This document shows positions 268 through 38,751 of a DNA stretch of 64,000 nt, one piece after another; the first letter of the stretch is position 1; each line of letters begins with the position of its first letter. The notes under the pieces are model-generated. The model did no database searches. It was not told the origin of the DNA and saw only the letters and a program-made list of their open reading frames with translations. Both the position numbers and the translations under genes were made by a program. Source of the stretch: Petrosia ficiformis (Eukaryota > Porifera > Demospongiae > Haplosclerida > Petrosiidae); the NCBI GenBank assembly GCA_947044365.1, contig OX345645.1, positions 6,205,741-6,269,740 on the forward strand. The letters run 5' to 3'.

Positions 268-3200
268 TAGTTATGTTGATGAATTCAGGAACTATAGTAA
301 AGAAATTATAATAATTGATAATATATTATATGTGACTTAATCAACAAATAGTGAGCTGTGTTTTACAACACATACAAACATTACAATGTTTGATTTTGGT
401 GGCCATTTTCTTTGGGCCAAAAATATTTTTCATGCTCATTTGGCCACCAATGAACATTACATGAAACACTGGATTACATAAACTTAGACATACCATCAGC
501 ATCTTGATCACGTACTCCATTATCTGTGAAATATACAAGACATTATACCACACACTAGTACAGTAATTAATGCTAATAACATAGCATTACAGTTGGCCAT
601 TTTTATGGCCCTTACGGCTATCCCTATGATTGCTTTCCCATGGGTTCAAACTCTATATATATATGTTTGTGTCACTTACGTGAGTATGCGTTGTATACAT
701 AGTTAAGGAAGTTATGTCATTCTCGGGTGCTCAGTCAATTAATGGGTGTGTCACGTAAAAGAACCCGCGCTCAAGCTCTACAGAAGAAAGCTGTGTACAT
801 GTAGCTTACGTAGAAACTGGAACTAATAGCTAGCCATTCTACCTGAAATATATTCCTAAAGTTCTACAAGGTTCGTTAAAAGGTAAACAGAGTAGATAAT
901 CAAAATAATAACTATAATAGGCTGTTGTGTTTCAGAGATGATAAAGTTAGCCATGATTACTGAATGCTGGACGCCACAAAGCAATCATAGAGATACTTTT
1001 TTCTCTATATTTTGTTTCAATACATGATTACCACACATACATATACTAAAATGTTTAATATCAATATAAACATTTAAACTAGCATACCTTTATCTTTATC
1101 ACCAAGGAGATTTTCAAGTTCTGCAGGCTCTGTGGAATGTAGAAGAGGTTATTTAAGACCACGAATAATAATAAATTAAACACAACTGGTAATTAAATGT
1201 TTGGAAGTAATTTACATTTTCACTGCCAATGAACAGCTTGCATATTACACTATTGCTAAGTACAGTCTGATATACTTTAAGATGTGTGCAGCTGATCATG
1301 GCAGTTACATGTACATGTTAGGTTGAATGTAACAAGATATATATTTAAAAGTATCCCTATGACTGTTTTGTGGTGTCCAGCATTCAGTAAGCCTTATTAT
1401 TTTGATTATCTACTCTGTTTACCTTTTAAAGAACCTTGTAGAACAGGAATATTTTTCAGGTAGAATAGCTAGCTATTAGTTCCAGTTTCTACGTAAGCTA
1501 CGCAGTTTTCTTTCTGCTGGTCTATAGAGCTCAAGTGCACATTCTTTCACGCGCCATGCCCATTAATTGACCGAACCCCCGGGAATGACATAACTTCCTT
1601 AACTACATATACAACTCATACTCGTGCAAGTGACACAAACACATATATATAAACATATATCGAACTCGTAGGAAAGCAATCATAGGGATGGCCCTACCGG
1701 CCTTAAAAACATGAAGAATAGAACTATACCCTTGTATGTAATGATCACAAACTAGATAAATTCACACAGACATTGTGACATCAAATTAGAAATAGGAAAT
1801 ATGGATTATAAAATGTAGGTGTACAGTAGTCTCATGTAGCCAGACCCAACTATCTATGAAGGAAGGGTTTGGGGACTATTATATCTACGATGGCTTCATG
1901 TGGTAGTCTTATATCAGTTTTATATAATAATATTCATTGTTGATACTGTTGTATATTAAGGGTTAAGGAGTGTTGTACCAAACACCCAACAGTACTTGAA
2001 CCAATGCTAGCATAGAAGGTTGGGTCTCGCTATGCAATACTAGGTGTATAAGCAAATAGCTATGTAAATAAATGTGATTGTGGATGTAAAAATCGCTTGC
2101 AGTGGTTACATGGCTGGTAGGCACACAAGTCATTATTCAACATTAAACATAGTCAATACAATGTTCATTGGTCCATATTTAGAGTAAAGCTATATTATTT
2201 ATTGAGTGTATTAGCTACTTTTTTGTGCGAGCGCAAAAAACGTAGCTAATACAAATTTTTAGCAAAAATTAATTATTACTGAGAAAGGGACAAGATACTT
2301 CAAAAACTTTTACAAAATTTCTGTTAGTCGAACAATTCGTAATATCAGTTTCAACCTTGCAGATTTTGAAAATTTTCAGCGAGTATCCTAATTAATTATA
2401 TGTATAACACACTATACAATCAACTTACCATCTGTACAGGTACAAGCCTCGGAATCACACGCCAACTGCATTTCACTACACGCACTTTCGCATAAGTCAA
2501 TATCACAATTTGTCACTAAAGAACGATAATAATAATAATTCATAATCATAATTATAACCTTTTATTACACTTTCATATGTAACGAAGACACAAACCACTG
2601 CAACTATCACTTTACCAATCATCACGACGTCTTGGAATAGACGGAGAGAAAGTAAAACTAGTGGTTTCAAGCACGAGGTTGTCCGCTAGACCTGCTCTTA
2701 ATTAGGCAGTTTCTACTATAAATAGTAACAAAAGCACACCCGTGACTATTTATAGTAACAAAATGCATGTGGTGTAATACATTACATGAGCGCCCATGGT
2801 CTTGACTGATGCATCAAGTAAACAAAATAATATTCTCACTATCAGACAATATTTCAACAGATTTCTCTTTCTTCAATTATGCTTACGTAAATTGAAAGTT
2901 CATCATATACTGCATCAAGTAGTATTCTCACTGCTGAAGTGATTTTAGTTGTTACAGTATACATGTAGTATATAACATAATAGATTTGTTGTTAATTCAT
3001 TCCCTTTTAAATTTGTTGGTACTTCATGAATGTCAAAATGAGGCATAGACAGTGCTGCATAATTAATTTGTACTGTCATGTGATTTGTTGTAAGGTTGTG
3101 TGCATTGCAAACATTTGTATATATAAACATTGAGTGCATCTAAAGCGAGTGCACTTCACAAGCTACTCAATTGAAGAACCTCCTTAAGTTTATATAAGCC

Positions 3201-4814
3201 CTCCTTAATACAACCAGTCAACCACAGTAAACAGCCCTTGCAGGTCACATTCACAATAAAATGACTATATATTGACTTTGTTATTGAACCAAGTACTTTA
3301 AGTGTTTTGCTTATTTATCAAGTGAGCTGAAATTGGTTGATAATAACGGAGAGATCATTGAATTAAGACACTGTTACAATACAATGTAAAGGCATTGATG
3401 CATTTAAACTTAATTATTGATGTAATATGCACATGAATCTAACACTGAGTAAAGCAAAACAGAGATAGAAACTGAGTTCTATGTAGTGTATGTAGACATC
3501 ATTATGTTGTACAGTGCAAGGCCTGTGTGTCTTAGTGCAAACCAATCTTTATTTGAGTAGAGAATCAATCGAATTGGTCCAAGTGTTGTGTAACTGAGAG
3601 TCTGATACAGCCATGTCTATGCAAATGATCATAGTTTCCCATCTTTTCTAAAAAGCTTTTTGTTGGTCATATACTTCTTTATTTAATGCTGTCACTTCAA
3701 ATAGTTTGTGCTGTTGTCTCAGTTGAGCAATATACTCTGCACATAGCTCCGGACATTTGTTTGGATATACACTATGTCATTAAGATTTTGGGGGGAATTC
3801 ATGATTCACAAATGGTTGATTGAATGATTTCATAACACTTGAAATAAGTGCTTTAAGTATTATGTTTTGCAATTTCTTTAGGACTTTACAGTTAAACTTG
3901 TTGATATACATATAAACAATTCTATATGCACAGCCAACACAGGTTTACAATCTATGGGAGGTAACCAATGCCAAAATGTTTATAAGCCCAGCATCGACCA
4001 AATTCGCCAAACCAGAATCTGATGTAGTTAGGGTTCCCATCTGAATCAAATTTGTTTAAATTGGAACCCTAACTACATGAGACCCTATGGTTAGGCAAAC
4101 ACGAATCACTTATATATACTATATTACAACAACACACTATAAAACAAACAGTATCCCAATACCCTTTTAAAAATAATACTATACAGATTACGCTATTGTC
4201 TAAGTATGGTCTTGATATACTTTTAAAATGTGTACGTAGCTGATGATGGTATGTACATGTGACAAGTTTAGGCTGAATGTAAAAACATGAATAGAACTGT
4301 ACCCTGTATGCAAATGATCACAAACTAGATAAATTCATAGACATTGATATCGGATTGGATACAGGAAATATGGATTATGAAATGTAGAATGTAGGTGTAA
4401 AGGTTGCTATATGACCTATACATCATGTATATAATTATAAAACTTACCCAGTTCTACAGCTTCAGGAACTAATGAATTAATACAATTGTAAACAATCGTA
4501 ATAACTATTAATCCAAGATATTTCAAAAACTTTTATAAAATTTCATACATTCAAGTACATTGAACAATTCCTAATATCAGTTTCAACCTTGCAGATTTCC
4601 AGTGAGTATCCTAATTAATTATATGTATAACACACTATACAATCAACTTACCATCTGTACAGCTACAAGCATCATGATCACACTCCTGCTGTATTTGACT
4701 ACACGCACTTTCGCATAAATCAATATCACAATATGGCACTAAAGAACGACCTTCTGCTACACTTTCATATGTAACGAAGACACACAACACTGCAACTATC
4801 ACTTTAGTAATCAT
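268..4814 (-). CDS. Gene A: secreted cysteine-rich, sequon-repeat protein (3' part outside window)
   Basis: Exons read right to left: 4814-4652 (signal peptide plus six-Cys module), 4468-4448 (PEAVEL), 1129-1088 (PAELENLLGDKDK), 523-494 (NGVRDQDAD) and 291-268 (PEFINIT). An alternative first-exon pair lies at 2622-2559 and 2515-2429. Every internal exon starts with two bases of a codon and ends with one base (phase 1-1), with AG acceptors and GTAAGT, GTATG or GTGAGT donors. The order matches genes B and C, which supports the model. The last exon seen is the first sequon micro-exon; the rest of the array and the C-alpha, C-beta and tail exons would lie left of the window. Predicted to be secreted or membrane-anchored. 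No named family is recognised. The model rests on splice signals and paralogy only. Confidence 0.55.
596..1705. repeat. Inverted pair of a ~380-bp interspersed repeat in introns of gene A
   Basis: Bases 596-1003 and 1350-1705 are inverted copies of one element: the end GGATGGCCCTACCGGCC, an internal ACGTAAGCTAC stretch and the end GGTGTCCAGCATTCAGTAA recur in opposite orientation. Further copies sit at about 17830-18225 and 57840-58050. The small exon 1129-1088 lies in the spacer between the arms. The pair could form a large hairpin in the pre-mRNA. Confidence 0.7.
2429..2622 (-). CDS. Gene A alternative first exons, copy 2: signal peptide and six-Cys module
   Basis: Exon 2622-2559 gives MIGKVIVAVVCVFVTYES plus a few residues. 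A 43-nt AT-rich intron (2558-2516) follows, from GTTATA to TTCTTTAG. Exon 2515-2429 gives the six-Cys module in C-x4-C-x3-C-x6-C-x4-C-x-C spacing, ending at a GTAAGT donor. Without splicing, the frame stops inside the Cys part, so the mini-intron is required. It lies between copy 1 and the shared downstream exons, so it could be an alternative promoter or exon of gene A, or the start of a separate gene whose neighbour has lost its 3' half. Confidence 0.55.
2746..2754 (-). promoter_or_regulatory. TATAAATAG box upstream of A copy 2
   Basis: On the minus strand GTTACTATAAATAG is followed about 20 bases later by its near mirror GTTACTATTTATAG. The same pair stands at matching positions before A copy 1 and gene B, about 125-135 bases upstream of the start codon. 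Conservation across three paralogues suggests a core promoter, though recent duplication also explains it. Confidence 0.45.
3150..3245 (-). promoter_or_regulatory. Conserved upstream block with TATATAAAC
   Basis: Read on the minus strand, GGGCTTATATAAACTTAAGG is followed by a stretch ending TCAATTGAGTAGCTTGTGAA. The block recurs at 5315-5405 and 19630-19735, and in diverged form without the TATA at about 30170-30235, always several hundred bases upstream of a first exon. It could be an upstream promoter with a long 5' leader. Confidence 0.35.
3246..4440. other. Non-coding spacer between the two first-exon copies of gene A
   Basis: AT-rich sequence matching about 19740-20540 upstream of gene B (shared GAATTCA and GGTTTACAATCTATGGGAGG stretches), so it belongs to the segmental duplication. 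No convincing exon or RNA gene is seen. Confidence 0.5.
4652..4814 (-). CDS. Gene A first exon, copy 1: signal peptide and six-Cys module
   Basis: The start ATG is taken at 4814; it begins the MI(A/T/G)K motif shared with the other copies. An open frame extends further upstream but has no ATG. The hydrophobic core VIVAVLCVFVTY is a good signal peptide. It is followed by cysteines spaced C-x4-C-x3-C-x6-C-x4-C-x-C, then a GTAAGT donor. In paralogues the signal and Cys parts are separate exons joined over a 43-52 nt intron. Here only 12 nt of that intron remain (4739-4750) and are read in frame as GRSL. Confidence 0.65.
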
Positions 4815-6945: not shown

Positions 6946-7026
6946 CTTCTTCTGTACAGAGATAACGAGCATTGTAGCAACTGATGGCACAACTTTCATA
7001 AGCATAAAATGGACATATTCCCGCAC
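6946..7026 (-). CDS. C-beta exon, four cysteines (alternative cassette of gene B)
   Basis: 81-nt phase 1-1 exon between the acceptor TCCAACAG and a GTATG donor. It encodes ICPFYAYESCAISCYNARYL then CTEE, with spacing C-x7-C-x3-C-x6-C. It is intact, unlike the nearer copy at 11592-11672, which has a stop codon. It could be spliced to the gene B C-alpha exon (12357-12560) by skipping the broken copy, giving a 305-residue product together with exon 5643-5818. Confidence 0.5.
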
Positions 7027-7179
7027 CTGTTGGATAAAAAAGAGACCAAATCAATATATAACTACAAGACAAATTAAATGATTAACTGCAGCTATCAAGG
7101 GACTCGTTAAGGAACCAAATTTCAGCTTGTGGGTATGACAACCATGGCTGGCAATGTTCTGCCCACACTGGTCGGGAAT

Positions 7180-7725: not shown

Positions 7726-7726
7726 T

Positions 7727-8303
7727 GTATGTATGTATGTATGTATGTATGTATGTATGTATGTATGTATGTATGTATGTATGTATGTATGTATGTATGT
7801 ATGTATGTATGTATGTATGTATGTATGTATGTATGTATGTATGTATGTATGTATGTATGTATGTATGTATGTATGTATGTATGTATGTATGTATGTATGT
7901 ATGTATGTATGTATGTATGTATGTATGTATGTATGTATGTATGTATGTATGTATGTATGTATGTATGTATGTATGTATGTATGTATGTATGTATGTATGT
8001 ATGTATGTATGTATGTATGTATGTATGTATGTATGTATGTATGTATGTATGTATGTATGTATGTATGTATGTATGTATGTATGTATGTATGTATGTATGT
8101 ATGTATGTATGTATGTATGTATGTATGTATGTATGTATGTATGTATGTATGTATGTATGTATGTATGTATGTATGTATGTATGTATGTATGTATGTATGT
8201 ATGTATGTATGTATGTATGTATGTATGTATGTATGTATGTATGTATGTATGTATGTATGTATGTATGTATGTATGTATGTATGTATGTATGTATGTATGT
8301 ATG
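7727..8303. repeat. (GTAT)n microsatellite, about 144 uninterrupted copies
   Basis: 577 bases of pure GTAT with no interruption. Open frames here (MYVC or IHTY repeats) are products of the repeat and not genes. The perfect purity suggests recent expansion. Confidence 0.95.
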
Positions 8304-11591: not shown

Positions 11592-11672
11592 CTTCTTATG
11601 TACAGAGATAACGAGCATTATAACAACTGATCGCACAAGTTTCATAAGCATAGAATGGACATACTCCCGCAC
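11592..11672 (-). CDS. Gene B C-beta exon with premature stop
   Basis: Nearly identical to 22255-22335 and 6946-7026, but the final codons read ACA TAA GAA instead of ACA GAA GAA, so TAA at 11596-11598 ends the frame right after the fourth cysteine. All four cysteines (C-x7-C-x3-C-x6-C) are kept, so the protein would be secreted without a membrane tail. Confidence 0.55.
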
Positions 11673-14600
11673 CTGTTGGATAAAAAAGAGACCAAATCAA
11701 TATAATTACAAGACAAATTACATGAATCAAGGGTCTTGTTAAGGAACCAAATTTGAGCTTGTGGGCATGGCAACCGTAGCTGGCAGTGTTCTGCCAACAA
11801 CCACCACCTCTCAGATAATACGAGACAGAATTAACAGCACTAACAACAATGCAAGTTGGAATCCAACCACCATTCTAAACATCCTGGGCAGAACACTGCA
11901 TTGCGATGGAAATTTGCACTTTATGGCTGATCAAGGAGGGTACTCTTTGGGGACAGTGGACTGTCGTCATTTAATGACCTGAATCAACCGATTAAAAAAG
12001 TAACTACCTCCAGCTAATGTATAAATGATTCAGGAACTAGACTTGAGGTTGTGGTGAATAATAAAAATTAGGATGTGAACAGTATGACTGAAGCAATAGC
12101 AAAAATAACTAAGCTTGCATTTAGTATGGACATTTTTTCATGAAATAACTTGCTTATTAGCAATCGCTCTCCATTACACCATTTTGTACAGCCCAGTCAT
12201 TAGAAATGATATGATTATATGTAAGCATTTGATCACAATTATTTTAAGGGAAGTGTCAGTTTCCAAAGTTTATACATACACATTGTCTAAACTGTAGTTA
12301 GGTAGGGGAGGGCTGTAAGCGCTCTTTCTCCAAACATATAAATTTACGTTACTTACCATAGTTTTCCACACAATAACAAATATCTGAAGCACATATTTCT
12401 TCACTAAGAGCACACAGACTATCACAAATGGTGAAGTTTCCATCGGTGATACGGCAGAATTTATAAAGTGGCTCTACACCAACGACTTTAAAAAATTCAA
12501 CTAGAAATTCAGAGATCACCTGAGCAGTTTCATTAAACACATCAAGTATATCTTCAATATCTAGTAGAAGTATAATTGTATACATAATACATGTGTAATG
12601 AAATGAATTGGCAACGTTGCTGGCTGGCTTTTGATATAAAGATTATACTGAAAATGCTGTTTATTAATTACATTCGTGCTAATAAAGTCTGTTCATATTC
12701 ACGATGTCCTCATAATTATGATGTGATGACTTTATATGTAATATAGTGTATAGGTTAATGTCACATGGTTAATACATGATTATACTGTAACTCAATAATG
12801 AAACAATGGATTGAAATTTGACAAACAAAAAAGAACGGGAAGGATAAGTATATGAAAATGGTACAGGTAAAAAGATTGTTGGTCATTTCAAACTAAAGTT
12901 ATGAGCATTTTTCTGAGGACAAGGTGAATGTGAATAACCTTTTAGTTCTTTAGCAAGTAAAGGAGTATCATTTCATAATAATTATATTATATATTACATA
13001 TAATGATTTATTTAACTCACGAGTTGTGTTGATGGTAGGAAATTCAACTACATAAAAGAAATTATAATCATCAATATTAATAAATAAGATTATATTATTA
13101 TTAATATGATGACAAGCTCACCAGTTGTGTTAGGAGTTGGAACTGCAAGAAAGATAATAAACAGAGATGATTGACATTGATAATAAACAAATCAAAATGA
13201 ATTGGTAAATAATAATAAAATAGTCATTTATCAGCCATTTTGCACAAAAAAAAACTAATTAAATTTGGTGTCTACATGGAGCAATAGTTCCTCTACCAGG
13301 ATACCAGATTTGGTCGGTATTGTTTAGAAAATGGGTTATCAATGAGTGTTTTGCCAAATTACTGATTATTGTGTCCACTGTAACAAATATATAATTTATA
13401 ATAATAATAATTATTATTATAACTCACAAGTTATGTTGATTGGTTCAGTAGGTACTGTAGGAAAAATAATAAACAGAGATGATTGATAAACAAGATTATT
13501 AAGTGAAAATCAGTTGGAAAATAATTATAATCTTTCATTTAATCGCACGTAGCTTGCATTTAGTTGGTATCCTTTAGAAAATGCTAGAATAACGAGTGCT
13601 TTGCTAAAATGACTGATTTTCATATCCACCCTCAAAAATATATAATATAATATTAATTATAACTCACCAGTTATGTTGATTGGTTCAGTAGGAACTATAA
13701 GGAAGAATAATATGATCATAAATCAATCAATAATGGATTTGGTAAATAATAATTATGTGCAACTCATTCTCCAGCCATTTTGCAGAGGATACTGACTAAA
13801 ATACATAATATAATAATTATAACTCACAAGTTATGTTGATGTCAGGAACTACAGAGAAAAAAATTGTTATAATCATCACCCATTGAGAATCAATAAATGT
13901 GAAAGTGAACACAACAGCCTTTTGGCTATTAATAAGGTTTCAATCACTCATTGCTTAGCCATTTTGCATTTAGTTGGCATCCTTTATTTAGAAATGCTAG
14001 AATAATGAGTGTTTCGCTAAAATGAGTGTCCACTCTCACAAATATATAATGATAATTAGGGCTTGGAAAAATATTTGAAGGTTCACACATGTTTTTATCA
14101 ATGTTGCTCTTGCCTATATTGGCTTCAAAAAGCCTCCAAAACTGGATTATTGCTTTATAATATAGAGTACTACTCTTGTTTCTGTTGCTGGATCTAACAT
14201 TGCTGGATCAAGAAACTAGCAACACGGGCTCAACTATACTGGAACACACTCATATTACTAAACACACATTGAGTGTACTTTTAAAGTGGGCATGGCAGAT
14301 AGTTTCAGAGGGAGAATTTAGCTTTGAAGGCACAGCATTCTGACAGCAAACTAATGAAGGTTCTAACTATTGAAACTTTTCCCAAGCCCTAGTAATAATT
14401 AAGGTAAGTAACTCACAAGTTATGTTGATGTCAGGAACTACAGAGAAAAAAATTGTTATAATCATCATTCATTGAGAATCAATAAATGTGAAAGTGAACA
14501 CAACAGCCTTTTGGCTATTAATAAGGTTTCAATCACTCATTGCTTAGCCATTTTGCATTTAGTTGGCATCCTTTATTTAGAAATGCTAGAATAATGAGTG

Positions 14601-17600
14601 TTTCGCTAAAATGAGTGTCCACTCTCACAAATATATAATGATAATTAGGGCTTGGAAAAATATTTGAAGGTTCACACATGTTTTTATCAATGTTGCTCTT
14701 GCCTATATTGGCTTCAAAAAGCCTCCAACACTGGATTATTGCTTTATAATATAGAGTACTACTCTTGTTTCTGTTGCTGGATTTAACATTGCTGGATCAA
14801 GAAACTAGCAACACGGGCTCAACTATACTGGAACACACTCATATTACTAAACACACATTGAGTGTACTTTTAAAGTGGGCATGGCAGATAGTTTCAAAGG
14901 GAGAATTTAGCTTTGAAGGCACAGCATTCTGACAGCAAACTAATGAAGGTTCTAACTATTGAAACTTTTCCCAAGCCCTAGTAATAATTAAGGTAAGTAA
15001 CTCACAAGTTATGTTGATGTCAGGAACTACAGAGAAAAAAATTTTTATAATCATCATTCATTGAGAATCAATAAATGTGAAAGTGAACACAACAGCCTTT
15101 TGGCTATTAATAAGGTTTCAATCACTCATTGCTTAGCCATTTTGCATTTAGTTGGCATCCTTTATTTAGAAATGCTAGAATAATGAGTGTTTCGCTAAAA
15201 TGAGTGTCCACTCTCAAATATATATAATAATAATTAGGGCTTGGAAAAATATTTGAAGGTCCGCACATGTTTTTATCAATGTTGCTCTTGCCTTCATTGG
15301 CTATAAAAAGCCTCCCAAACTGGATTATTGCTTTATAACTAGTACTACTCTTGTTTCTGTGGCTGGATTTAACATTGCTGGATCAAGAAACTAGCAACGC
15401 AGCCTCGAACACACTCATACTACTAAACACACATTGAGTGTACCTGTGCAAACATTAAAGTAGGCATGGCAGATAGTTTCAAAGGGAGAATTTAACTTTG
15501 AATGCACGGCAAACAAATGAAGGTTCTAACTTTAGAAACTTTTCCCAAGCCCTAGTAATAACTAAGGTAAGTAACTCACAAGTTATGTTGATGTCAGGAA
15601 CTACAGAGAAAAAAAATTGTTATAATCATCACTCAATGAGAATCAATAAATGTGAAAGTGAACACAACAGCCATTTGGCTAATAATAATTTTGTGAAACA
15701 CTTGTATTTAAATTTGCACAAAAAGCTAACTAAATTTGGTGTCTACATGAGCAATAGTCACTATACCAGGATACCAGATTTAGTGGGTATTGTTAAGAAA
15801 ATGGGTTATCAATGAGTGTTTTACCAAATGACTAATTATTGTGTTCACTGTAACAAATATATATAATAATAATAATAATTATAACTCACAAGTTATGTTG
15901 ACTTCAGGAACTACAGGAAAAAATAATAAACAGAGGTGATTGACATTGATAAATAAACAAGATTATCAAGGAAGTGAAAATCAGTTGGCAAAATTTAATA
16001 TTATAATTATGAAACTCTTGCAATTAATCACTCGTAGCTCAGCCATTTTGCATTTAGTTGGTATATATATACATATAATTATGTATAATTATTATAATAA
16101 TAATGATGACAAACTCACTAGTTATGTTGTTGATTTCAAGAACTATAGTATATAAAGAAATTATAATAATTGACAATATATTATATGCGACTTAATTATC
16201 AAATAGTGAGCTATGTTTTACAACACATACACACATTACAATGTTTGATTTTGGTGGCCATTTTCTTTGGGCTAAAAATATTTTTCATGCTCATTTGGCC
16301 ACCAATGAACAATACATGAAACACTGGATTATATAAACTTACACATACCATAAGTTTCTTGATTACGTCCCTCGTTATCTGGGAAATATACAAGACATTA
16401 TAACCACAAGCTAGTATAATAATTAAACACAAATTGCAATTCACAATTATTGTAATGTTGTTTAGAGGCAACTAACTTACTTATTTGCATTGCAAATAAC
16501 ATACCATTACAGTCGGCCATTTGTTTCAACACATGATTATCACACATACACAAACTATGATACTAAAATGTTTAATATCAATCAGTGTTTTTGATAAACT
16601 AATATGGCGCACCATTGGCCCAAAGAGCTTCTTATTTGGCACTACACAGTTATCTCTTTGGGCAAATAGTGCAGTTAATTATGATTATATTTTTCCCTAA
16701 CAGCATTAACTATTAGGCAATTGAATCAAGATGTATTTATTACCTTCGCCGCAGAGTGTAGGGGGAAGGGTACGGTAATCGTTTTGTCTGTGTGTGTGTT
16801 AGCAATTTTTCTGGATAAATAAAAACATTGACATTTTAAACGGGGTACTGGTAGACTTCAAATTATACAAGGGAAAAAAAGAACGTAGGAAATCCTCTAA
16901 AACCTTTTGGTTCTAATGTTATGACAATTTTTATAACTCACAGTTATCGTTTCACGACTTTAAGATGAAACGAGGGCAATAACGAGAGTAAATATGGACA
17001 CACAAACACAAGTGATCCTGTTTCATGGCTGTTGCTAGCCAAGAAACACTTCAAACCAAAACAATCAAGGTAATGGTTGCTACTACACCACCATTGATCC
17101 AAGATAGAAAGCTACCTAGCTCCACCTACAGGTATGTGCAAGTGCATGCTTGCAAAGGGTCATGTACTAAACACGTGATAAAGGTGATTCAATACGTTTT
17201 CACGCGTTGGAGACTTTGGAGATTGTTTTTCGAATGAAAACAGAGAATAAGATTATACATTTCTTTTATTGATATTCTTATTTTGTCTTTTAGGATATAA
17301 AGTTATAACAGTTTTAATGCCCATAAATGTTTTTCAAATTTACATGTGTATTCCATGTAACAAAAGTATTGTTTGTTTCATACACAAACTTTATTATATT
17401 TTGAAAACAATTGTAGTGCTTGTATTACTTTGCCACGTAGGCGAGGGTCCTGTCCCAACGGCGTTTGTTTCTAATGGTACCCAACACTAACTATGTTTGA
17501 GCCATTTGGCCCATGCTTCAATACATATCAAAAACTCTGATTTAAACTAGCATACCTTTATCTTTATCACCAACGAGATCTTCAAGTTCTGCAGGCTCTG

Positions 17601-19121
17601 TGGAATATAGAAGAGATTATTTAAGACCACAGATAATAAAAAATTAAACACAATAATAATTAATTAAATGTTGTTTAGAAGTAATTTACATTTTCAGTGC
17701 CAATGAACAGCTTGCATATTACACTATTGCTAAGTACAGTCTGATATACTTTAAGATGTGTGCAGCTGATCATGGCAAAGTTACATGTATATGTTAGGTT
17801 GAATGTAACAAGATATATATATATAGAAAAAGTATCCCTGACTGCTTTGTGGTGTCCAGCATTCAGTAATCATGGCTAACTTTATCATGCCTGAAATATC
17901 ATCAGCCTATTCATAGTTATTATTCTGGTTATCTACTCTATTTACCTTTTAAAGAATCTTGTAGAACTTTAGGAATATATTTCAGGTAGAATAGCTAGCT
18001 ATTAGTTCAAGTTTCTACGTAAGCTACACAACTTTCTTTCTGCTGGTCTGTAGAGCTCAAGTGTGTGTTCTTTTACGCATCATACCCATAAATCAACCGA
18101 GCCTCCAAAATGACATAACTACATATACTGTACAACGCATGCTCATGCAAGTGACACAAACATATATATATAAACATACATTGAACCTGTGGGAAAGCGA
18201 CCGTAGGGATGACCCTACAGGCCAGAAAAGAAGTAATAAATCCAGGCACAGACATTAATATCAAATTCGAAATAGGAAATATGGATTATAAAATGTAGGT
18301 CTGCAGTAGTCTCATGTAGCCAGACCCAACTTTCTATGAAGGAAGAGTTTGGGGACTACTAATTACAGGCTTCCTCTTGTAGTCTTAATGAAATTTATAT
18401 TGGTCTTAATGATATTCATTGTTGATACTAGGGGGATTAAGGAGTGTTGTACCAAACATCCAACAGTACTTAAACCAATGCTAGCATAGAATATTGGGTC
18501 TTGCTATGTAATACCAGGTGTATAAGTAAATAGCTGTGTAGATACAACTCTTAGACTATAAATGTGACCGTGGATACGAAAATCACTTGCAGTGGTTACA
18601 TGGCTGGTAGACACAAAAGTCATTATTCAACATTAATGTTTGAATCTGTAATAGTTGATATAATGTTCATTGCTCCATATTTAAAGTAAAACTATATTAT
18701 TTAATTAGTGTTTTAGCTACTTTTTTATGTGAGCACCACATGACCGAACCACATTTTGTAATTTAGCATAATTTTAACAAAAATTAATTATGCTGAGAAA
18801 AAGACAAGATATTTTAAACACTTTTATAAAAACAATTAAGTTTCAAATTTGCAGATTTTGAAAATTTTCAGCGAGTATCTCTATATACATATATATTGCA
18901 CACTATACAATCAACTTACCAACACAGTTACAAACGTCATGATCACAGTTTTGCTGTATTTGATTACACGCAAGTTCGCATACTTCAATATCACAATATT
19001 TCACTGACGCTAAAGAACAACAATAATAATAATAACAATACACATAATCATTATAACCTTCTGCTACACTTTCATATGTAACGAAGACACAGAACACTGC
19101 AACTATCAGTTTAGCAATCAT
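11596..19121 (-). CDS. Gene B: secreted cysteine-rich protein with N-glycosylation-sequon micro-exons
   Basis: Exons, right to left: 19121-19058 (signal), 19009-18920 (six Cys), 17597-17556, 16378-16349, 16142-16119, 15910-15890, 15600-15580, 15026-15006, 14437-14417, 13848-13828, 13694-13668, 13454-13428, 13142-13122, 13047-13021, 12560-12357 (C-alpha) and 11672-11596 (C-beta, ending at TAA). The lengths sum to 738 nt, 245 residues plus stop, with no frame break. The signal peptide is MIAKLIVAVFCVFVTYES. Internal exons are all phase 1-1. The middle is an array of ten sequon micro-exons. The product is likely an N-glycosylated extracellular protein. If the stop exon is skipped, the cassette at 7026-5643 would give a 305-residue membrane-tailed form. 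No known family is recognised. Confidence 0.6.
11784..11898. mobile_element. Short TIR element in intron of gene B
   Basis: Ends CAGTGTTCTGCC and GGGCAGAACACTG are inverted repeats. A near-identical copy sits at 22447-22561 and a longer relative at 43047-43229. An open frame across it is present in both duplicates but lies inside the repeat. Confidence 0.55.
12357..12560 (-). CDS. Gene B C-alpha exon: helix plus six-Cys domain
   Basis: 204-nt phase 1-1 exon (acceptor TTCTACTAG, donor GTAAGT). The first ~35 residues, from DIEDILDVFNETAQ to VVGVEPLYKF, look amphipathic and helical. Then come six cysteines spaced C-x9-C-x3-C-x6-C-x4-C-x-C. The length is exactly that of the C-alpha exons in genes C and F. 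The last five Cys intervals equal those of the N-terminal module, so both probably share one fold. Confidence 0.65.
13021..16142 (-). CDS. Gene B sequon micro-exon array (10 exons of 21-27 nt)
   Basis: Micro-exons encode PTINTT (with leading EF), PTPNTT, PTEPINIT twice, PDINIT four times, PEVNIT and LEINNIT. Each is flanked by a branch/acceptor such as TCTCTGTAG and a GTGAGT donor and is phase 1-1. Each carries exactly one N-x-T sequon. The first codon is split, so the leading residue becomes I, F or V depending on which exon is joined before it. This looks like a glycosylated stalk whose length can vary by splicing or copy number. Confidence 0.65.
14058..14390. mobile_element. MITE (AGGGCTTGG family) inside the exon-duplication unit
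   Basis: Ends AGGGCTTGGAAAA and TTTTCCCAAGCCCT are inverted, with inner TTGAAGGTTC / GAAGGTTCTAAC. It has been copied together with the micro-exon: near-identical copies lie at 14647-14979 and 15236-15553 in gene B, and at 25305-25637, 25894-26211 and 26709-27034 in gene C. Confidence 0.75.
14647..14979. mobile_element. MITE (AGGGCTTGG family), second tandem copy
   Basis: Near-identical to 14058-14390, offset 589 bases as part of the tandem unit. Confidence 0.75.
15236..15553. mobile_element. MITE (AGGGCTTGG family), third tandem copy
   Basis: More diverged, slightly shorter copy with the same ends. Its gene C counterpart is 25894-26211. Confidence 0.7.
16583..17541. mobile_element. MITE (CAGTGTTTTTGATAA family) split by a nested insertion
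   Basis: Left part 16583-16740 and right part 17471-17541 together match the uninterrupted copies at 46166-46383 and 54420-54645 (GCACCATTGGCCCAAAGAGC and GAGCCATTTGGCCCATGCTT halves). The middle is a different repeat. Confidence 0.7.
16741..17470. mobile_element. Nested insertion, CTCGCC-ended repeat family
   Basis: Inserted into the MITE above. It starts ACCTTCGCCGCAGAG and ends near GGCGAGGGTCCTGTCC, resembling the elements at 23869-24448, 42488-42937 and 52252-52674 (CCCTCGCC ends, TATACAAGG and ACTCACGGTT inner blocks). No transposase frame is seen. Confidence 0.6.
17598..18919. other. First large intron of gene B
   Basis: Holds one copy of the ~380-bp repeat (17830-18225) and a GTAGCCAGACCCAAC repeat fragment near 18315, both shared with gene A introns at 1340-2030. 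No exon equal to PEAVEL (4448-4468) is found here; its absence keeps the frame. Confidence 0.5.
18920..19121 (-). CDS. Gene B first exons: signal peptide and six-Cys module
   Basis: Exon 19121-19058 and exon 19009-18920 are separated by a 48-nt intron (19057-19010) running from GTTATAATG to TTCTTTAG. The intron length is a multiple of three and has no stop, so retention would insert 16 Tyr/Cys-rich residues without breaking the frame. The Cys spacing is C-x4-C-x3-C-x6-C-x4-C-x-C. Confidence 0.6.
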
Positions 19122-20729: not shown

Positions 20730-23700
20730 CTATAAATATAACATTATATCATGACTCCTTATTAAGAACCATGCAATTCTACTGTAATGTGATTGTAGTC
20801 AGCTCAGATACTACCACAGTCTGGCGTAGCCACACCCTTCGCATGGAGGAGGAAGGGTCTGGTATCTTACCGTCAAGAGTTTTGTACTGTCGTTTCCAGT
20901 AATCTTGCAACGGCGCTCTCAAACCGGAGATGACGTAACCTAAAGCAAACACCACATGATCAGAGTAAATTGATTGGCTAAATGTTATACTACCACGCCC
21001 ATTCCCGGTCCCGCTTTGACATTTTTTGTTGCAAGATTGATGCAAATGACAGTACCGCTGCAAAATTTCTGCAGTAGCAGGAAGTGACGTTTCTATAGGT
21101 GTGAGATCACACAATTATGGCAGATGAACGAGCTGAGCAGCTCCACCCAAGGTTGCTATAATTACATTCCATTATATATTGTTGATACCAGACCCTTCCT
21201 CCTCCATACGAAGGGTGTGGCTACGCCAGACTAATACTACCAGGGGTGTGGAAACAATGAGCCGACTACCGGACATTTTGGCCCGTTTTTACAACTCTAG
21301 TCCTGCTCCCCATATACTTTGTATACAGTTTAGTTTCAATTTACCGGATATTCAACTAGATTTATCGGACAATGTCATGCATGACTGGTTGTTTCCACAC
21401 CACTGGCTACTACGTAAATTACAATAAAATTTTATTTTATCAAAACACTTCTATTGTAATACAAAATGATTCAGCTGTGAAACCCAATACAAAATTGTGA
21501 AATTGCAAAAAAAAATTAATGATTGTGAATATATAATTATATGTGCAGCAAAATTCAAATTCCTATACATAATCATGATTGGTACAAGAAAAAGGTGTTC
21601 TTGATTTTGAAGTTAAGTGGTTTCAAGTAACTGGAAAGAATAATGAATATAACAGTAATTATAGTAGAAATAATCATAATTTACATTATTCATAATTGGC
21701 ATTTCAAACCTTGCTATATACATAAGAATGTGATATATATAATACTCATTTTGTATGATGCATTAAGAATTTTAATGCAATGGATGGGAGGGTTCAATGT
21801 AGCCTATGGTCTTATTCTGAGTATCAAAAATATTATCAAGTCTTATGAATAACATTATGTGGTTGACTACACTGCAAGACCATTAAGCACTATGCATGGT
21901 ATTATTCTTGTACCTCTTCTTCAATTGAATTCTATTGTTAAATACAATCAAACACAAATAGTTTAATCAAGTTGGGGTTTTGGGATATAGTAGTCTTGTA
22001 CAGTATCGACCTTGATTATACTAGTGTTGTACTTGTAATTTTTTGTCAATACTAAATATTAGCAACTAGAATTATATTTACTAGTATAGGTACAATACTA
22101 GTATTTGTGTATCTGGGTATTCATTGGCTCATGTGCAGGAACCAAACACGTGAAATTGAAATCACAATAAAATGGCAGTTTATAAGTGTCTTGGTTAGTT
22201 ATAGTTATCTACCAATTGATGTATAACTAGATATAATAATGCATGCATACATACGTTCTTCTGTACAGAGATAACGAGCATTATAACAACTGATCGCACA
22301 AGTTTCATAAGCATAGAATGGACATACTCCCGCACCTGTTGGATAAAAAAGAGACCAAATCAATATAATTACAAGACAAATTACATGAATCAAGGGTCTT
22401 GTTAAGGAACCAAATTTGAGCTTGTGGGCATGGCAACCGTAGCTGGCAGTGTTCTGCCAACAACCACCACCTCTCAGATAATACGAGACAGAATTAACAG
22501 CACTAACAACAATGCAAGTTGGAATCCAACCACCATTCTAAACATCCTGGGCAGAACACTGCATTGCGATGGAAATTTGCACTTTATGGCTGATCGAGGA
22601 GGGTACTCTTTGGGGACAGTGGACTGTTGTCATTTAATGACCTGAATCAACTGATAAAAAAAAAGTAACTACATCCAGCTAATGTATAAATGATTTAGGA
22701 ACAAGATTTGAGGTTGTGGGGAGTAACAAGCATTAGGATGTGAACAGTATGACTGAAGCAATGGCAAAAACAGCCAAGCTTGCATTTAGTATGGGACATT
22801 TGTTCATGAAATAACTTGCTTACTAGCAACTGCTCACCATTACACCAGTTTGTACAGCAAGTTGTTGGTATCCAGGAAATGATATATGTAAGCACAATTA
22901 TTTTAAGGGAAGTGTCAGTTTCCAAAGTTTATATATACACATTGTCTAAATTGTAGGTAGGTAGGGGAGGGCTGCAAGCATTCTTTCTCCAAACATATAT
23001 AAATGTATTACGTTACTTGCCATAGTTTTCCACACAATAACAAATATCTGAAGCACATGTTTCTTCACTAAGAGCACACAGACTATCACAAATGGTGAAG
23101 TTTCCATCGGTGATACGGCAGAATTTATAAAGTGGCTCTACACCAACGACTTTAAAAAATTCAACTAGAAATTCAGAGATCACCTGAGCAGTTTCATTAA
23201 ACACATCAAGTATATCTTCAATATCTAGTAGAAGTATAATTATAATTGTATACATAATACATGTGTAATGAAATGAATTGGCAACGTTGCTGGCTGGCTT
23301 TTGATATAAAGATTATACTGAAAATGCTGTTTATTAATTACATTCGTGCTAATAAAGTCTGTTCATATTCACGATGTCCTCATAATTATGATGTGATGAC
23401 TTTATATGTAATATAGTGTATAGGTTAATGTCACATGGTTAATACATGATTATACTGTAACTCAATAATGAAACAATGGATTGAAATTTGACAAACAAAA
23501 AAGAACGGGAAGGATAAGTATATGAAAATGGTACAGGTAAAAAGATTGTTGGTCATTTCAAACTAAAGTTATGAGCATTTTTCTGAGGACAAGGTGAATG
23601 TGAATAACCTTTTAGTTCTTTAGCAAGTAAAGGAGTATCATTTCATAATAATTATATTATATATTACATATAATGATTTATTTAACTCACGAGTTGTGTT

Positions 23701-26700
23701 GATGGTAGGAAATTCAACTACATAAAAGAAATTATAATCATCAATATTAATAAATAAGATTATATTATTATTAATATGATGACAAGCTCACCAGTTGTGT
23801 TAGGAGTTGGAACTGCAAGAAAGATAATAAACAGAGATGATTGACATTGATAATAAACAAATCAAAATGAATGCACTAAAGTGCAGAACCCTCGCTAGCT
23901 ACTGCTAAACAGCATGGCTTTAGAACAACTTTGCCTAAGTAACATTGCAACAGCCAGGAACACACCATTCATATCAACACCATAATTTGCATATTCATGT
24001 ATACTGACTTCTTATCAGTAGTACATGAATATGCAAATTATGGGGATAGCATGGCCATCAGATCTCTTGAGAACTAGTGAATTTCTGGACAAAACTTCAC
24101 AAATAGCTGTATAAACACTCGTTAGGACAATAGACAAACCTCAAGAAACAAAGCTTCAAAGAGACAAAAGTTAGTGGTTCAGTGTTTTCTGCTGACATCA
24201 GCAAAAACGAAGAAATTTCAAGATGGCGACAGATGGACGAGAGTTTACACAGCTGTTTCTCTGCAACAAGATGAGTTCAGAACAAATCCTTTAAATGTCG
24301 GCATTATGGATATATAGCGTCTTCAACCATGTGTCAACAAATTAGTATCATCAGGTATTTGCAAAGATTACGTGGTAACACACAGACAGACAGACAGACA
24401 CACACACAAACCAACTACTATAACCCTCCGCCTAAGCAGCTTGGGTTAATGAGTTGGTAAATAATAATTTTGTGAAACACTAAAATATTCCATTTTGCAC
24501 AAAAAAAGAATAATAATAACTAAATTTGGTGTCTACATGAAGCAATAGTTCCTCTACCAGGATACCAGGTTTAGCGGGTATTGTTTAGAAAATGGGTTAT
24601 CAATGAGTGTTTTACCAAATTATTGTGTCCACTGTAACAAATATATATAATAATAATAATAATTATAACTCACAAGTTATGTTGATTGGTTCAGTAGGTA
24701 CTGTAGGAAAAATAATAAACAGAGATGATTGATAAACAAGATTATTAAGTGAAAATCAGTTGGAAAATAATTATAATCTTTCATTTAATCGCACGTAGCT
24801 TGCATTTAGTTGGTATTCTTTAGAAAATGCTAGAATAACAAGTGCTTTGCTAAAATGACTGATTTTCATATCCACCCTCAAAAATATATAATATAATATT
24901 AATTATAACTTACTAGTTATGTTGATTGGTTCAGTAGGAACTATAAGGAAGAATAATATGATCATAAATCAATCAATAATGGATTTGGTAAATAATAATT
25001 ATGTGCAACTCATTCTCCAACCATTTTGCAGAGGATACTGACTAAAATATATAATATAATAATTATAACTCACAAGTTATGTTGATGTCAGGAACTACAG
25101 AGAAAAAAATTGTTATAATCATCACCCATTGAGAATCAATAAATGTGAAAGTGAACACAACAGCCAATTGGCTATTAATAAGGTTTCAATCACTCATAGC
25201 TCAGCCATTTTGCATTTAGTTGGCATCCTTTATTTACAAAATGCTAGAATAATGAGTGTTTCGCTAAAATGAGTGTCCACTCTCACAAATATATAATGAT
25301 AATTAGGGCTTGGAAAAATATTTGAAGGTTCACACATGTTTTTATCAATGTTGCTCTTGCCTATATTGGCTTCAAAAAGCCTCCAAAACTGGATTATTGC
25401 TTTATAATATAGAGTACTACTCTTGTTTCTGTTGCTGGATCTAACATTGCTGGATCAAGAAACTAGCAACACGGGCTCAACTATACTGGAACACACTCAT
25501 ATTACTAAACACACATTGAGTGTACTTTTAAAGTGGGCATGGCAGATAGTTTCAAAGGGAGAATTTAGCTTCGAAGGCACAGCATTGTGACAGCAAACTA
25601 ATGAAGGTTCTAACTATTGAAACTTTTCCCAAGCCCTAGTAATAATTAAGGTAAGTAACTCACAAGTTATGTTGATGTCAGGAACTACAGAGAAAAAAAT
25701 TGTTATAATCATCATTCATTGAGAATCAATAAATGTGAAAGTGAACACAACAGCCTTTTGGCTATTAATAAGGTTTCAATCACTCATTGCTTAGCCATTT
25801 TGCATTTAGTTGGCATCCTTTATTTAGAAATGCTAGAATAATGAGTGTTTCGCTAAAATGAGTGTCCACTCTCAAATATATATAATAATAATTAGGGCTT
25901 GGAAAAATATTTGAAGGTCCGCACATGTTTTTATCAATGTTGCTCTTGCCTTCATTGGCTATAAAAAGCCTCCCAAACTGGATTATTGCTTTATAACTAG
26001 TACTACTCTTGTTTCTGTGGCTGGATTTAACATTGCTGGATCAAGTAACTAGCAACGCAGCCTCGAACACACTCATACTACTAAACACACATTGAGTGTA
26101 CCTGTGCAAACATTAAAGTAGGCATGGCAGATAGTTTCAAAGGGAGAATTTAACTTTGAATGCACGGCAAACAAATGAAGGTTCTAACTTTAGAAACTTT
26201 TCCCAAGCCCTAGTAATAACTAAGGTAAGTAACTCACAAGTTATGTTGATGTCAGGAACTACAGAGAAAAAAAATTGTTATAATCATCACTCAATGAGAA
26301 CCAATAAATGTGAAAGTGAACACAACAGCCATTTGGTTATTTAAATTTGCACAAAAAAGCTAACTAATTTTGATGTCTTTGTTTAGAAAATGGGTTATCA
26401 ATGAGTGTTTTACCAAATGACTGATTATTGTGTCTACTGTAACAAAGATATATAATAATAATAATTATTATAACTCACAAGTTATGTTGAGGTCAGGAAC
26501 TACAGAGAAAAAAATTGTTATAATCATCATTCATTGAGAATCAATAATTGTGAAAGTGAACACAACAGCCTTTTGGCTATTAATAAGGTTTCAATCACTC
26601 ATTGCTTAGCCATTTTGCATTTAGTTGGCATCCTTTATTTAGAAATGCTAGAATAATGAGTGTTTCGCTAAAATGAGTGTCCACTCTCAAATATATATAA

Positions 26701-36874: not shown

Positions 36875-38751
36875 ATGCAAGAGAGCGTGTCCTTGATCAT
36901 CCTAGGTTCTCTTGTCATCAGTGTTTTAATCTGTATCATTTATAATGCCTACTTGAGGTACTGTTCTTTATGCTTGATAGTAGGTATGTATGTGCATACA
37001 TATAATCATATATACTTTACATATGTACATATGTAGCTACGTACATACATACATACATATAATCATAGAAAAGTTGCCAAGGTGGTTGTTTTCCAGAATA
37101 AATGGGGCAAACCACCCTTTTGTGTTAGCACATGGAAAACTATGGGGTGTTCTAATTGGGATCACTGCAAATAAGCAGGTGTGATATCACAAATTAACAC
37201 TTATGACTGTCTGTGTAAACACACTATGAATCTTTCAGCAGCTGTTACAGAAGAAGCTCTTAACACTCACTTTTTGCAAGAGGGCAAGATTGCAGCCCTG
37301 ATACACATGTACTACATACATACATACATACACACATACCTAAATACATACATACATACATACATACATACACACATACCTAAATACATACATACATACA
37401 TACATACACACATACCTAAATACATGCATACATACATACATACATACACACATACCTAAATACATACATACATACATACATACATACATACACACATACC
37501 TAAATACATGCATACATACATACATACATACACACATACCTAAATACATACATACATACATACATACATACATACACACATACCTAAATACATGCATACA
37601 TAAATACATACATACATACATACATACATACAACATACATACATACATACATAAAATGGGTAGATCTTCTCACAGCTGTGTAAATTCAAGGAGGGATTTG
37701 GTTTATACTATAAACCAAGTCCCTCCTTTCTATTTTATACCTTTTTCATGTATATACTCTCAAGTATTCTGTTATGTAGCACTTTTACATCAACCTGACT
37801 CAATTAAGTAAGTGTGTGGGTATGTATTATTAACTTATTGCAGAATTCATGGCTGCATCTGGGAATTAGTGTTGTTTTATATAGTTAACTATAATTACAA
37901 CAAAAACACATTTTAGTAAGGCATTATGACTTTTAGTTAACCAAATCATAAGTCTATTTTAATAACTATAACTAACTAAATTGAAAAATGACACTTTTAG
38001 TTAGTTAACTAACCCTTTTAGTAAGCCTAATATTATTTTAGTTAATTAAACTATAACTAAACTAAAAATTGGAGAAACTAGTCATACTGTAACTATAACT
38101 AAAAGTGGTCATTATTATCATACTAAAACAACATTGATGAGAATACGAACTTTATTGGATTTAAACAAAAATATACTTTTTCACATTTGCAGAAACATTT
38201 TCATTATTTTATTATTAGGAGCTTTCAAGAAAGGCTATGCAAGTGCAAGCATTGATGCATGCATGCATGCATGTGTGTGTTTTGAAATGGACTTAATTCG
38301 ATTTTCTACATTATATACAGATAGATGCAGAGCAGTGACGTTTATTTCCCTAACAAATCTTCATGGAATATTTCAGTGATATTCCCGACTTGTATATATC
38401 AGTATTCTAATTTCTGGTATTGCGAATTGTCTCACCTGTAAAGGTGGAATGGAGGGTCACTGTAATCTTTAAAATATTAACACAAGTGCATGAAAAATGA
38501 CTTTTTATTAACTTTGAAACAGGAAATTGATGTTTCAATAATAATATTGGTCAATTGAAAACTTATTTATAGATAAAAATAGTTAATTAACTACAATTAA
38601 CCATAATAATTATTATAGTTAATTAATTTAATAATTGTATAGTGTTGCAGGATTATGGTGCAGGTGTGGAGCAAATGACGACTGCCAATCTGTGTGTGTG
38701 GATTATTTTAATAATCTTGATTGCAAATGGGAATGTACTAACTGCTCATAG
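36875..38751 (+). CDS. Gene E (tentative): short secreted Cys-rich protein
   Basis: Tentative exons: 36875-36983 (ATG, hydrophobic leader MQESVSLIILGSLVISVL…, donor GTATGT), 38219-38242 (AFKKGYA) and 38651-38751 (acceptor TGTTGCAG). The last encodes eight cysteines, WCRCGANDDCQSVC onward to CTNCS and TAG. Phases match (1-1) and the total is 234 nt, 77 residues. The last exon is the best part: its C-x3-C-x8-C-x3-C-x2-C resembles the family framework. The leader lies in a palindromic repeat (ATCAAGTATAAAGAACAGTAC arms), so it may be chance. Exons 38219-38242 and upstream have a duplicate at 63972-63995. Confidence 0.3.
37150..37330. repeat. Interspersed repeat leading into CATA microsatellite
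   Basis: Direct copy of 63160-63290 and inverted relative to 7240-7430. Confidence 0.65.
37316..37653. repeat. CATA-based compound minisatellite
   Basis: (CATA)n broken periodically by CACACATACCTAAATACAT, giving units of about 45-65 bases, seven or so copies. Open frames in it (YIHT, CMYV repeats) are products of the repeat. Confidence 0.9.
37844..37869 (+). pseudogene. Shortened copy of the gene G tail exon
   Basis: Acceptor TTATTGCAG then AATTCATGGCTGCATCTGGG, ending at TAG. The gene G copy at 63579-63631 has 27 additional bases encoding the hydrophobic part. The deletion keeps the frame, but the tail here would be only eight residues. Confidence 0.35.
37867..38135. mobile_element. TTAGTTAACTAA-family MITE
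   Basis: Begins TAGTGTTGTTTTA and ends near AAAACAACATTGATG, directly after the TAG above. Its duplicate is 63630-63898. Confidence 0.7.

Follow-up and report, generated by a model that had tools for sequence, protein, structure and literature searches.

The closest described systems to the locus reported here are the micro-exon genes (MEGs) of Schistosoma. According to the accessible parts of the papers that describe them, these genes encode secreted proteins largely through short symmetric exons, occur as clustered species-specific duplicates and are alternatively spliced (PMC4350168, PMC5825161). One family, MEG-26, shows a repeated exon-length pattern (PMC5825161, PMC4350168), and symmetric exons of 6-36 bp are described as making up about 80% of the coding region (PMC5825161). 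The same parts lay the emphasis on O-glycosylation in regions rich in Thr, Ser and Pro and mark some N-sites. Here we analyse a window of 64,000 nucleotides from the sponge Petrosia ficiformis (C10:6205741-6269740, contig OX345645.1; the genome comprises 191 Mb in 29 contigs). Gene B of this window and its relatives A, C and D carry arrays of micro-exons that encode N-glycosylation sequons. We consider it likely that A-D are a young tandem family of small N-glycoproteins, probably secreted, with a micro-exon-coded stalk that is set in the germline and whose exons are mainly included constitutively. An earlier, sequence-only reading of this DNA knew of no described family built in this way. This was overstated, given that MEGs are also secreted and also use short symmetric exons (PMC4350168, PMC5825161, as far as their accessible parts go).

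The array of gene B comprises ten micro-exons between positions 13021 and 16142 on the minus strand, which the sequence-only reading had left unstated. All ten are phase 1-1; six measure 21 nt, one 24 nt and three 27 nt (Table 1), and each contains exactly one sequon, NIT in eight exons and NTT in two. Acceptors are AG with pyrimidine-rich tracts and donors follow GTGAGY (GTGAGT in 9/10, GTGAGC in 1/10). The exon layout of the sequence-only reading is thus confirmed in number, length and phase, but not in its uniform GTGAGT donors. Likewise, its short Pro-x-(NIT or NTT) unit stands with respect to one sequon per exon, whereas proline is absent from LEINNIT and several units, such as PTEPINIT and EFPTINTT, are longer.

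Gene C is a close duplicate of B, while A and D are diverged paralogs. Together the four genes hold 33 array micro-exons, 21 of them distinct; every one of the 33 contains a sequon and has a length that is a multiple of three. Lengths are 21, 24, 27, 30 and 75 nt, and since 32/33 measure only 21-30 nt, gene predictors may miss such genes. Genes A, B, C and D contain 7, 10, 11 and 5 array exons with 7, 10, 13 and 5 sequons, respectively. The 75-nt exon of C reads through a donor-like GTGAAT, which suggests a fusion of former units. Acceptors are TAG in 28 exons and CAG in five. Donors are GTGAGT in 30/33, GTGAGC in two and GTAAGT in one, a uniformity that weakly favours constitutive inclusion.

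A single protein, P0001, was retrieved when the gene C model served as query (E 8.5e-102; 75% identity across 86% of that model). It is 223 residues long and encoded on an ENA contig of 1054 nt. The matching C exons span about 6.5 kb, so a contig of this length is too short for the gene with its introns; as it encodes the exons in one unbroken stretch, it is probably cDNA-like. Within P0001, a long first array unit is followed by seven NIT/NTT units, a last unit shorter by three residues and then the Cys-rich domain, with nine recognisable units in the array. It is like C in having the long first unit and PEIPxVNIT and, apart from two PTEPINIT units that it lacks, is collinear with C. When P0001 was cut by the C exons, a single residue remained at each array join (V, seven times I, V, R), and G remained before the last exon. 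These residues stand between the exon bodies, in the place of the split codon, and the protein thus matches the predicted joins. The R at the entry of the Cys-rich exon would fit a base C joined to GT, as the acceptor of D reads. Joins before the array are looser, with four residues where the bodies of exons 2 and 3 were cut short, and at the join of exons 4 and 5 P0001 has DKD rather than one residue, resembling A and B, where this exon is longer. Unused splice sites had been named in the sequence-only reading as the outcome that would speak against the array; P0001, a relative, reads as spliced.

To compare the arrays with chance, we counted the motif AG-(18-33 nt, multiple of three, phase 1, terminal sequon)-GTRAG on both strands of 164 kb. 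The real sequence contained 32 such motifs, while 20 first-order Markov sequences of equal length contained 0 to 4 (mean 0.85). Among all AG-(18-33 nt, multiple of three)-GTRAG frames of the real sequence, 32/54 inside A-D and 0/190 outside ended in a sequon in phase 1. Of the 33 array exons, 31 are among the 32 matches, and the remaining match is a D exon read from an overlapping alternative acceptor; the motif does not cover the 75-nt exon of C or SDFNITFE of A. Because the copies arose by duplication and are not independent, their number alone is no argument, but the constraint on them is. In an alignment of 32 of the 33 copies (without SDFNITFE), the Asn and Thr codons showed a single change, which was synonymous (AAT for AAC), and the middle codon was ATA or ACA only. 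In contrast, among the last 12 exon bases the split final one varied most (entropy 1.67), and intron positions +8 to +30 varied with entropies of 0.53 to 1.84. Residue shuffling never reproduced the observed numbers: the array of B has 10 sequons versus a mean of 1.85 (0/2000 shuffles) and that of P0001 has 10 versus 1.87 (0/2000).

The same conservation might be explained if NIT/NTT persisted because it forms a beta-prone or structural heptad (I-N-I-T-I/F) or acts as an exonic splicing element, with glycosylation incidental. Hydrophobic residues do alternate in the units, the 10 bases at the exon end, AACATAACTN, hardly vary beside the donor, as a splicing enhancer would give, and P0001 has lost the second of the three sequons in the long unit. 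However, the 75-nt exon of C keeps its NTT and NIS sequons away from the donor, P0001 keeps the first sequon of the long unit as NIT while its neighbours have changed, and the observed changes (AAT for AAC; ATA/ACA) all preserve the sequon. We regard this explanation as improbable, although it deserves consideration. The structure model has no strands in the stalk, with very low confidence there, and hence does not decide on a beta-prone motif.

The borders of the cassettes follow a simple frame logic. Among the 33 array exons, the first two bases are TT in 28, TA in three, TG in one and AT in one. A codon with T in the second position always encodes a hydrophobic residue and cannot be a stop, and NAT encodes N, D, H or Y and is never a stop either. 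The codon split at the start of an array exon would thus mostly be of the form NTT (Phe, Leu, Ile or Val) and never a stop, so that the frame stays intact and no stop arises when an exon is duplicated, lost or skipped. We joined all forward pairs of array exons and their neighbours in B and C and obtained no stop in any of the 66 joins of B or the 78 of C; 55 and 66 of these joins, respectively, gave F, I, V or L. Two proposals of the sequence-only reading are borne out by this, namely that skipping or gain of exons is frame-safe and that the preceding exon determines the leading residue.

Such freedom could serve a modular 'glycan counter', in which the number of N-glycans would be digital, one micro-exon per glycan, tuned in each transcript through exon skipping and in each genome through duplication of units, while the split codons would permit exons in any order; taken as one joint reading, we find this rather unlikely. 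Its splicing-coded form holds that each transcript or tissue skips or includes individual micro-exons, so that one gene gives a series of stalk lengths, as MEGs do for protein variants. All skips are frame- and stop-safe, MEGs use alternative splicing in this way (PMC4350168, in its accessible part), and the two neighbouring PTEPINIT units of C are missing from P0001, which could reflect skipping. Yet these units may equally be absent from the gene of P0001, and the near-uniform splice sites across the array argue for uniform inclusion, which leaves this form doubtful as well.

Germline change of the arrays, as proposed in the sequence-only reading, is supported by the differing exon counts of the four paralogs and the nine units of P0001. 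Gene B contains two tandem 589-bp units of exon plus intron, which share 98.5% and 98.0% identity with their counterpart in C. Since they are closer to each other (Table 1) than to that of C, a recent gain of one unit in B, once B and C had separated, is probable. Both units carry an element resembling a miniature inverted-repeat transposable element (MITE), which has relatives across the genome (612 first-look candidates, of which 40 were scored). In a tree of the 33 units, the initial unit in A, B and C clusters by position, as do the final two in A-D, and a nine-unit group is restricted to B and C (seven PDINIT, one PDLNIT, one PEIPDVNIT); 12 of the 28 inner branches are well supported and the deeper order is unsure. 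Unequal exchange of exon-plus-intron units, some with the MITE, would lengthen and shorten the array, and the number of stalk sequons would then be set mainly in the germline. That units were amplified along with their introns and the MITE might also be expected of a decaying, exon-like tandem DNA repeat that is unused in transcripts. We consider this very improbable, as P0001 reads as a spliced product and all 33 lengths are multiples of three, each with a sequon. Under the favoured reading of a germline-set stalk, stalk length would follow from the count of germline cassettes, spliced constitutively.

Gene B as a whole (19121-11596, minus strand) consists of a hydrophobic first exon, a short Cys motif, the array and a C-terminal Cys-rich domain. 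The spliced model has 245 residues and 12 sequons, 10 of them within the array, and its introns are phase 1 throughout. The boundary of exon 1 is tentative because its donor, GTTATA, is weak. The hydrophobic N-terminus, by eye a putative signal peptide, is conserved in A, B and C. The 78 residues of the B array contain 10 N-sequons and no serine, in contrast to a mucin-like Ser/Thr/Pro-rich stalk. Sequence searches with the Cys-rich domain gave no Pfam family and no solved relative. AlphaFold2 predicts helices for this domain at moderate confidence, with a predicted local distance difference test score (pLDDT) of about 65-78; the stalk stays undefined, and pLDDT averages 43.4 over the whole model. 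Searching by fold added nothing informative. The predicted protein plan would be a hydrophobic N-terminus, a short Cys motif, a Pro/Ile-rich stalk and a 10-Cys C-terminal domain, with the stalk coded by symmetric phase-1 micro-exons that each carry a single sequon, in a unit that mostly reads [F/I/V/L]-P-x-x-N-I/T-T. With glycans attached at the predicted sites, the product would probably act as a glycan-shielded, protease-resistant spacer between the Cys-rich parts or as a surface coat.

Several points weigh against this interpretation. For two orthologous micro-exons, exon divergence was not clearly below intron divergence (A-B 4/48 versus 16/176, B-D 4/48 versus 19/177, A-D 0/48 versus 10/165), a comparison with too few sites. 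Of the three sequons in the long first unit, P0001 retains two and has NII where C has the middle one as NIS. P0001 is also a single record and could be an intronless retrocopy. The boundaries of the first exons and the signal peptide were judged by eye, and B stops early, with TAA at a position that reads GAA in A, C and D. The last exon of D is frameshifted by a 4-nt deletion, and no 5' exons of D were found with tblastx; for these two reasons D may be a pseudogene. Finally, in the stalks of two further paralogs, E and F, sequons are only mildly enriched in E (12 versus 6.3 in residue shuffles, 26/2000 of which reach 12, with repeats that are not independent) and F shows no enrichment (1 versus 0.75).

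Table 1. Features of genes A, B and C, with array exons in transcript order (window positions unless marked C10).
Feature	Position	Strand	Details
B exon 1	19058-19121	-	start codon and hydrophobic, signal-peptide-like segment (by eye) MIAKLIVAVFCVFVTYESVAE; frame conserved in A and C
B exon 2	18920-19009	-	short Cys motif YCDIEVCELACNQIQQNCDHDVCNC; phase 1-1
B exon 3	17556-17597	-	42 nt, phase 1-1, PAELEDLVGDKDK; counterparts in A and C; P0001 region aligns
B exon 4	16349-16378	-	30 nt, phase 1-1, NEGRNQETY, without sequon; aligns to P0001 NAVRNQDTD
B micro-exon 1	16119-16142	-	24 nt, LEINNIT
B micro-exon 2	15890-15910	-	21 nt, PEVNIT
B micro-exon 3	15580-15600	-	21 nt, PDINIT
B micro-exon 4	15006-15026	-	21 nt, PDINIT
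B micro-exon 5	14417-14437	-	21 nt, PDINIT
B micro-exon 6	13828-13848	-	21 nt, PDINIT
B micro-exon 7	13668-13694	-	27 nt, PTEPINIT
B micro-exon 8	13428-13454	-	27 nt, PTEPINIT
B micro-exon 9	13122-13142	-	21 nt, PTPNTT, donor GTGAGC
B micro-exon 10	13021-13047	-	27 nt, EFPTINTT
B Cys-rich C-terminal exon	12357-12560	-	204 nt, phase 1-1, sequons NET and NFT
B last coding exon	11596-11672	-	AGVCPFYAYETCAISCYNARYLCT, then TAA
B tandem exon-plus-intron units	13828-14416, 14417-15005	-	589 bp each, 99.15% identical
MITE-like element in array intron	14066-14395		TAGGGCTTGGAAAA...TTTTCCCAAGCCCTA, roughly 330 bp
Further MITE-like copies	14655-14984, 15244-15558, 25313-25642, 25902-26216, 26717-27039
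Gene C	22255-29579	-	11 array exons
C exon 1	29510-29579	-	tentative, weak donor GTAAAA
C exons 2-5	29371-29457, 28692-28727, 28310-28345, 28042-28071	-
C array exon 1	27599-27673	-	75 nt, in frame, 3 sequons
C array exons 2-6	27339-27359, 27061-27090, 26479-26499, 26238-26258, 25664-25684	-
C array exons 7-11	25074-25094, 24914-24940, 24674-24700, 23792-23812, 23691-23717	-
C C-terminal exon	23021-23224	-	GC donor
C last exon	22255-22335	-	end uncertain
Gene A, 5' part	268-4814	-	gene straddles left window edge
A exon 1	4652-4814	-	second, similar first exon near 2436-2646
A further exons	1088-1129, 494-523	-
A first micro-exon	268-291	-	PEFINIT
A remaining six array exons and 3' end	C10:6202662-6205567		left of window

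Gene D, with five array exons, lies on the plus strand past the right window edge. Across the genome, the Cys-rich domain matched only on C10, always within 6.19-6.33 Mb including A-D, with at least 22 matches at E<=0.001 for the B domain as query and at least 30 at E<=1 for a diverged member. The stalks of other paralogs differ: E has an acidic repeat with NxT sites, and E and F have Pro/Thr/Ser-rich repeats. An orphan copy of the last Cys exon lies between A and B (window 6953-7027), and pairs of Cys-domain genes repeat every 3.1-3.4 kb or so at C10:6303-6321 kb. Open reading frames (ORFs) with a 48-bp coding repeat, PTQPPEESTVSTSPPV, occur at window 58236-58845 and at C10:6263791-6264926 and 6299805-6301505; by eye they end in a hydrophobic tail resembling a glycosylphosphatidylinositol (GPI) or membrane anchor, and a longer paralog is present beyond the right window edge.

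Further repeats in the window are a 40-bp satellite (about 69 copies, 97% matches, 48420-51159) and a perfect TGTA microsatellite (about 144 copies, 7726-8303) with a related TACA array (37313-37653). ORFs with a WDTGA motif, presumably resembling retropepsin-type aspartic proteases, lie at 47296-48003 and 51292-51972, with copies right of the window. In the left flank, two ORF sets that we take to be NLR-like (C10:6168584-6171641 and 6175604-6179594) each have a separate upstream ORF ending in LSGDVESNPGPVG, which we assume to be a 2A-like motif. Elsewhere in the genome, we noted a cathepsin-L-like cluster on contig C15 (191-197 kb and 1488-1513 kb), in which one member, presumably silicatein-like, has Ser in place of the usual catalytic Cys (CGCSYAF), and on contig C1 (20.36 Mb) a gene with a 459-bp tandemly repeated domain that looks Calx-beta-like by eye.

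In the open-licence literature, as far as its accessible parts go, we found no description of one N-glycosylation sequon per micro-exon. If one N-glycan is indeed attached per cassette, as predicted, exon architecture would be tied to a post-translational modification, and the family would offer a natural system to relate glycan number to stalk stiffness, protease resistance and recognition. It also raises the question of whether symmetric micro-exon arrays arose outside trematodes. Three kinds of known systems can be compared with A-D. Tropoelastin and fibrillar collagens also contain tandemly duplicated symmetric exons, with repeat units on separate exons of the same phase, but their units are not sequons and their exons are longer than those of A-D. 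Mucin-type stalks, as in E and F, share the extracellular short-repeat spacer with sugar sites; in E and F, however, the repeats lie inside one open frame and are Thr/Ser-rich, whereas in A-D one repeat equals one exon and one N-site. With MEGs, A-D share short symmetric internal exons: all 33 array exons are multiples of three, and exons 2-4 of B and 2-5 of C are symmetric. Symmetric exons of at most 36 nt make up 35% of the coding sequence in B and 40% in C, compared with the roughly 80% given in the accessible description of MEGs, and we therefore do not file A-D as MEGs. The array exons of A-D are, moreover, near-copies of one unit with one N-sequon each, which sets them apart from MEGs as described. 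A-D nevertheless work like MEGs in that their exons are frame-safe cassettes.

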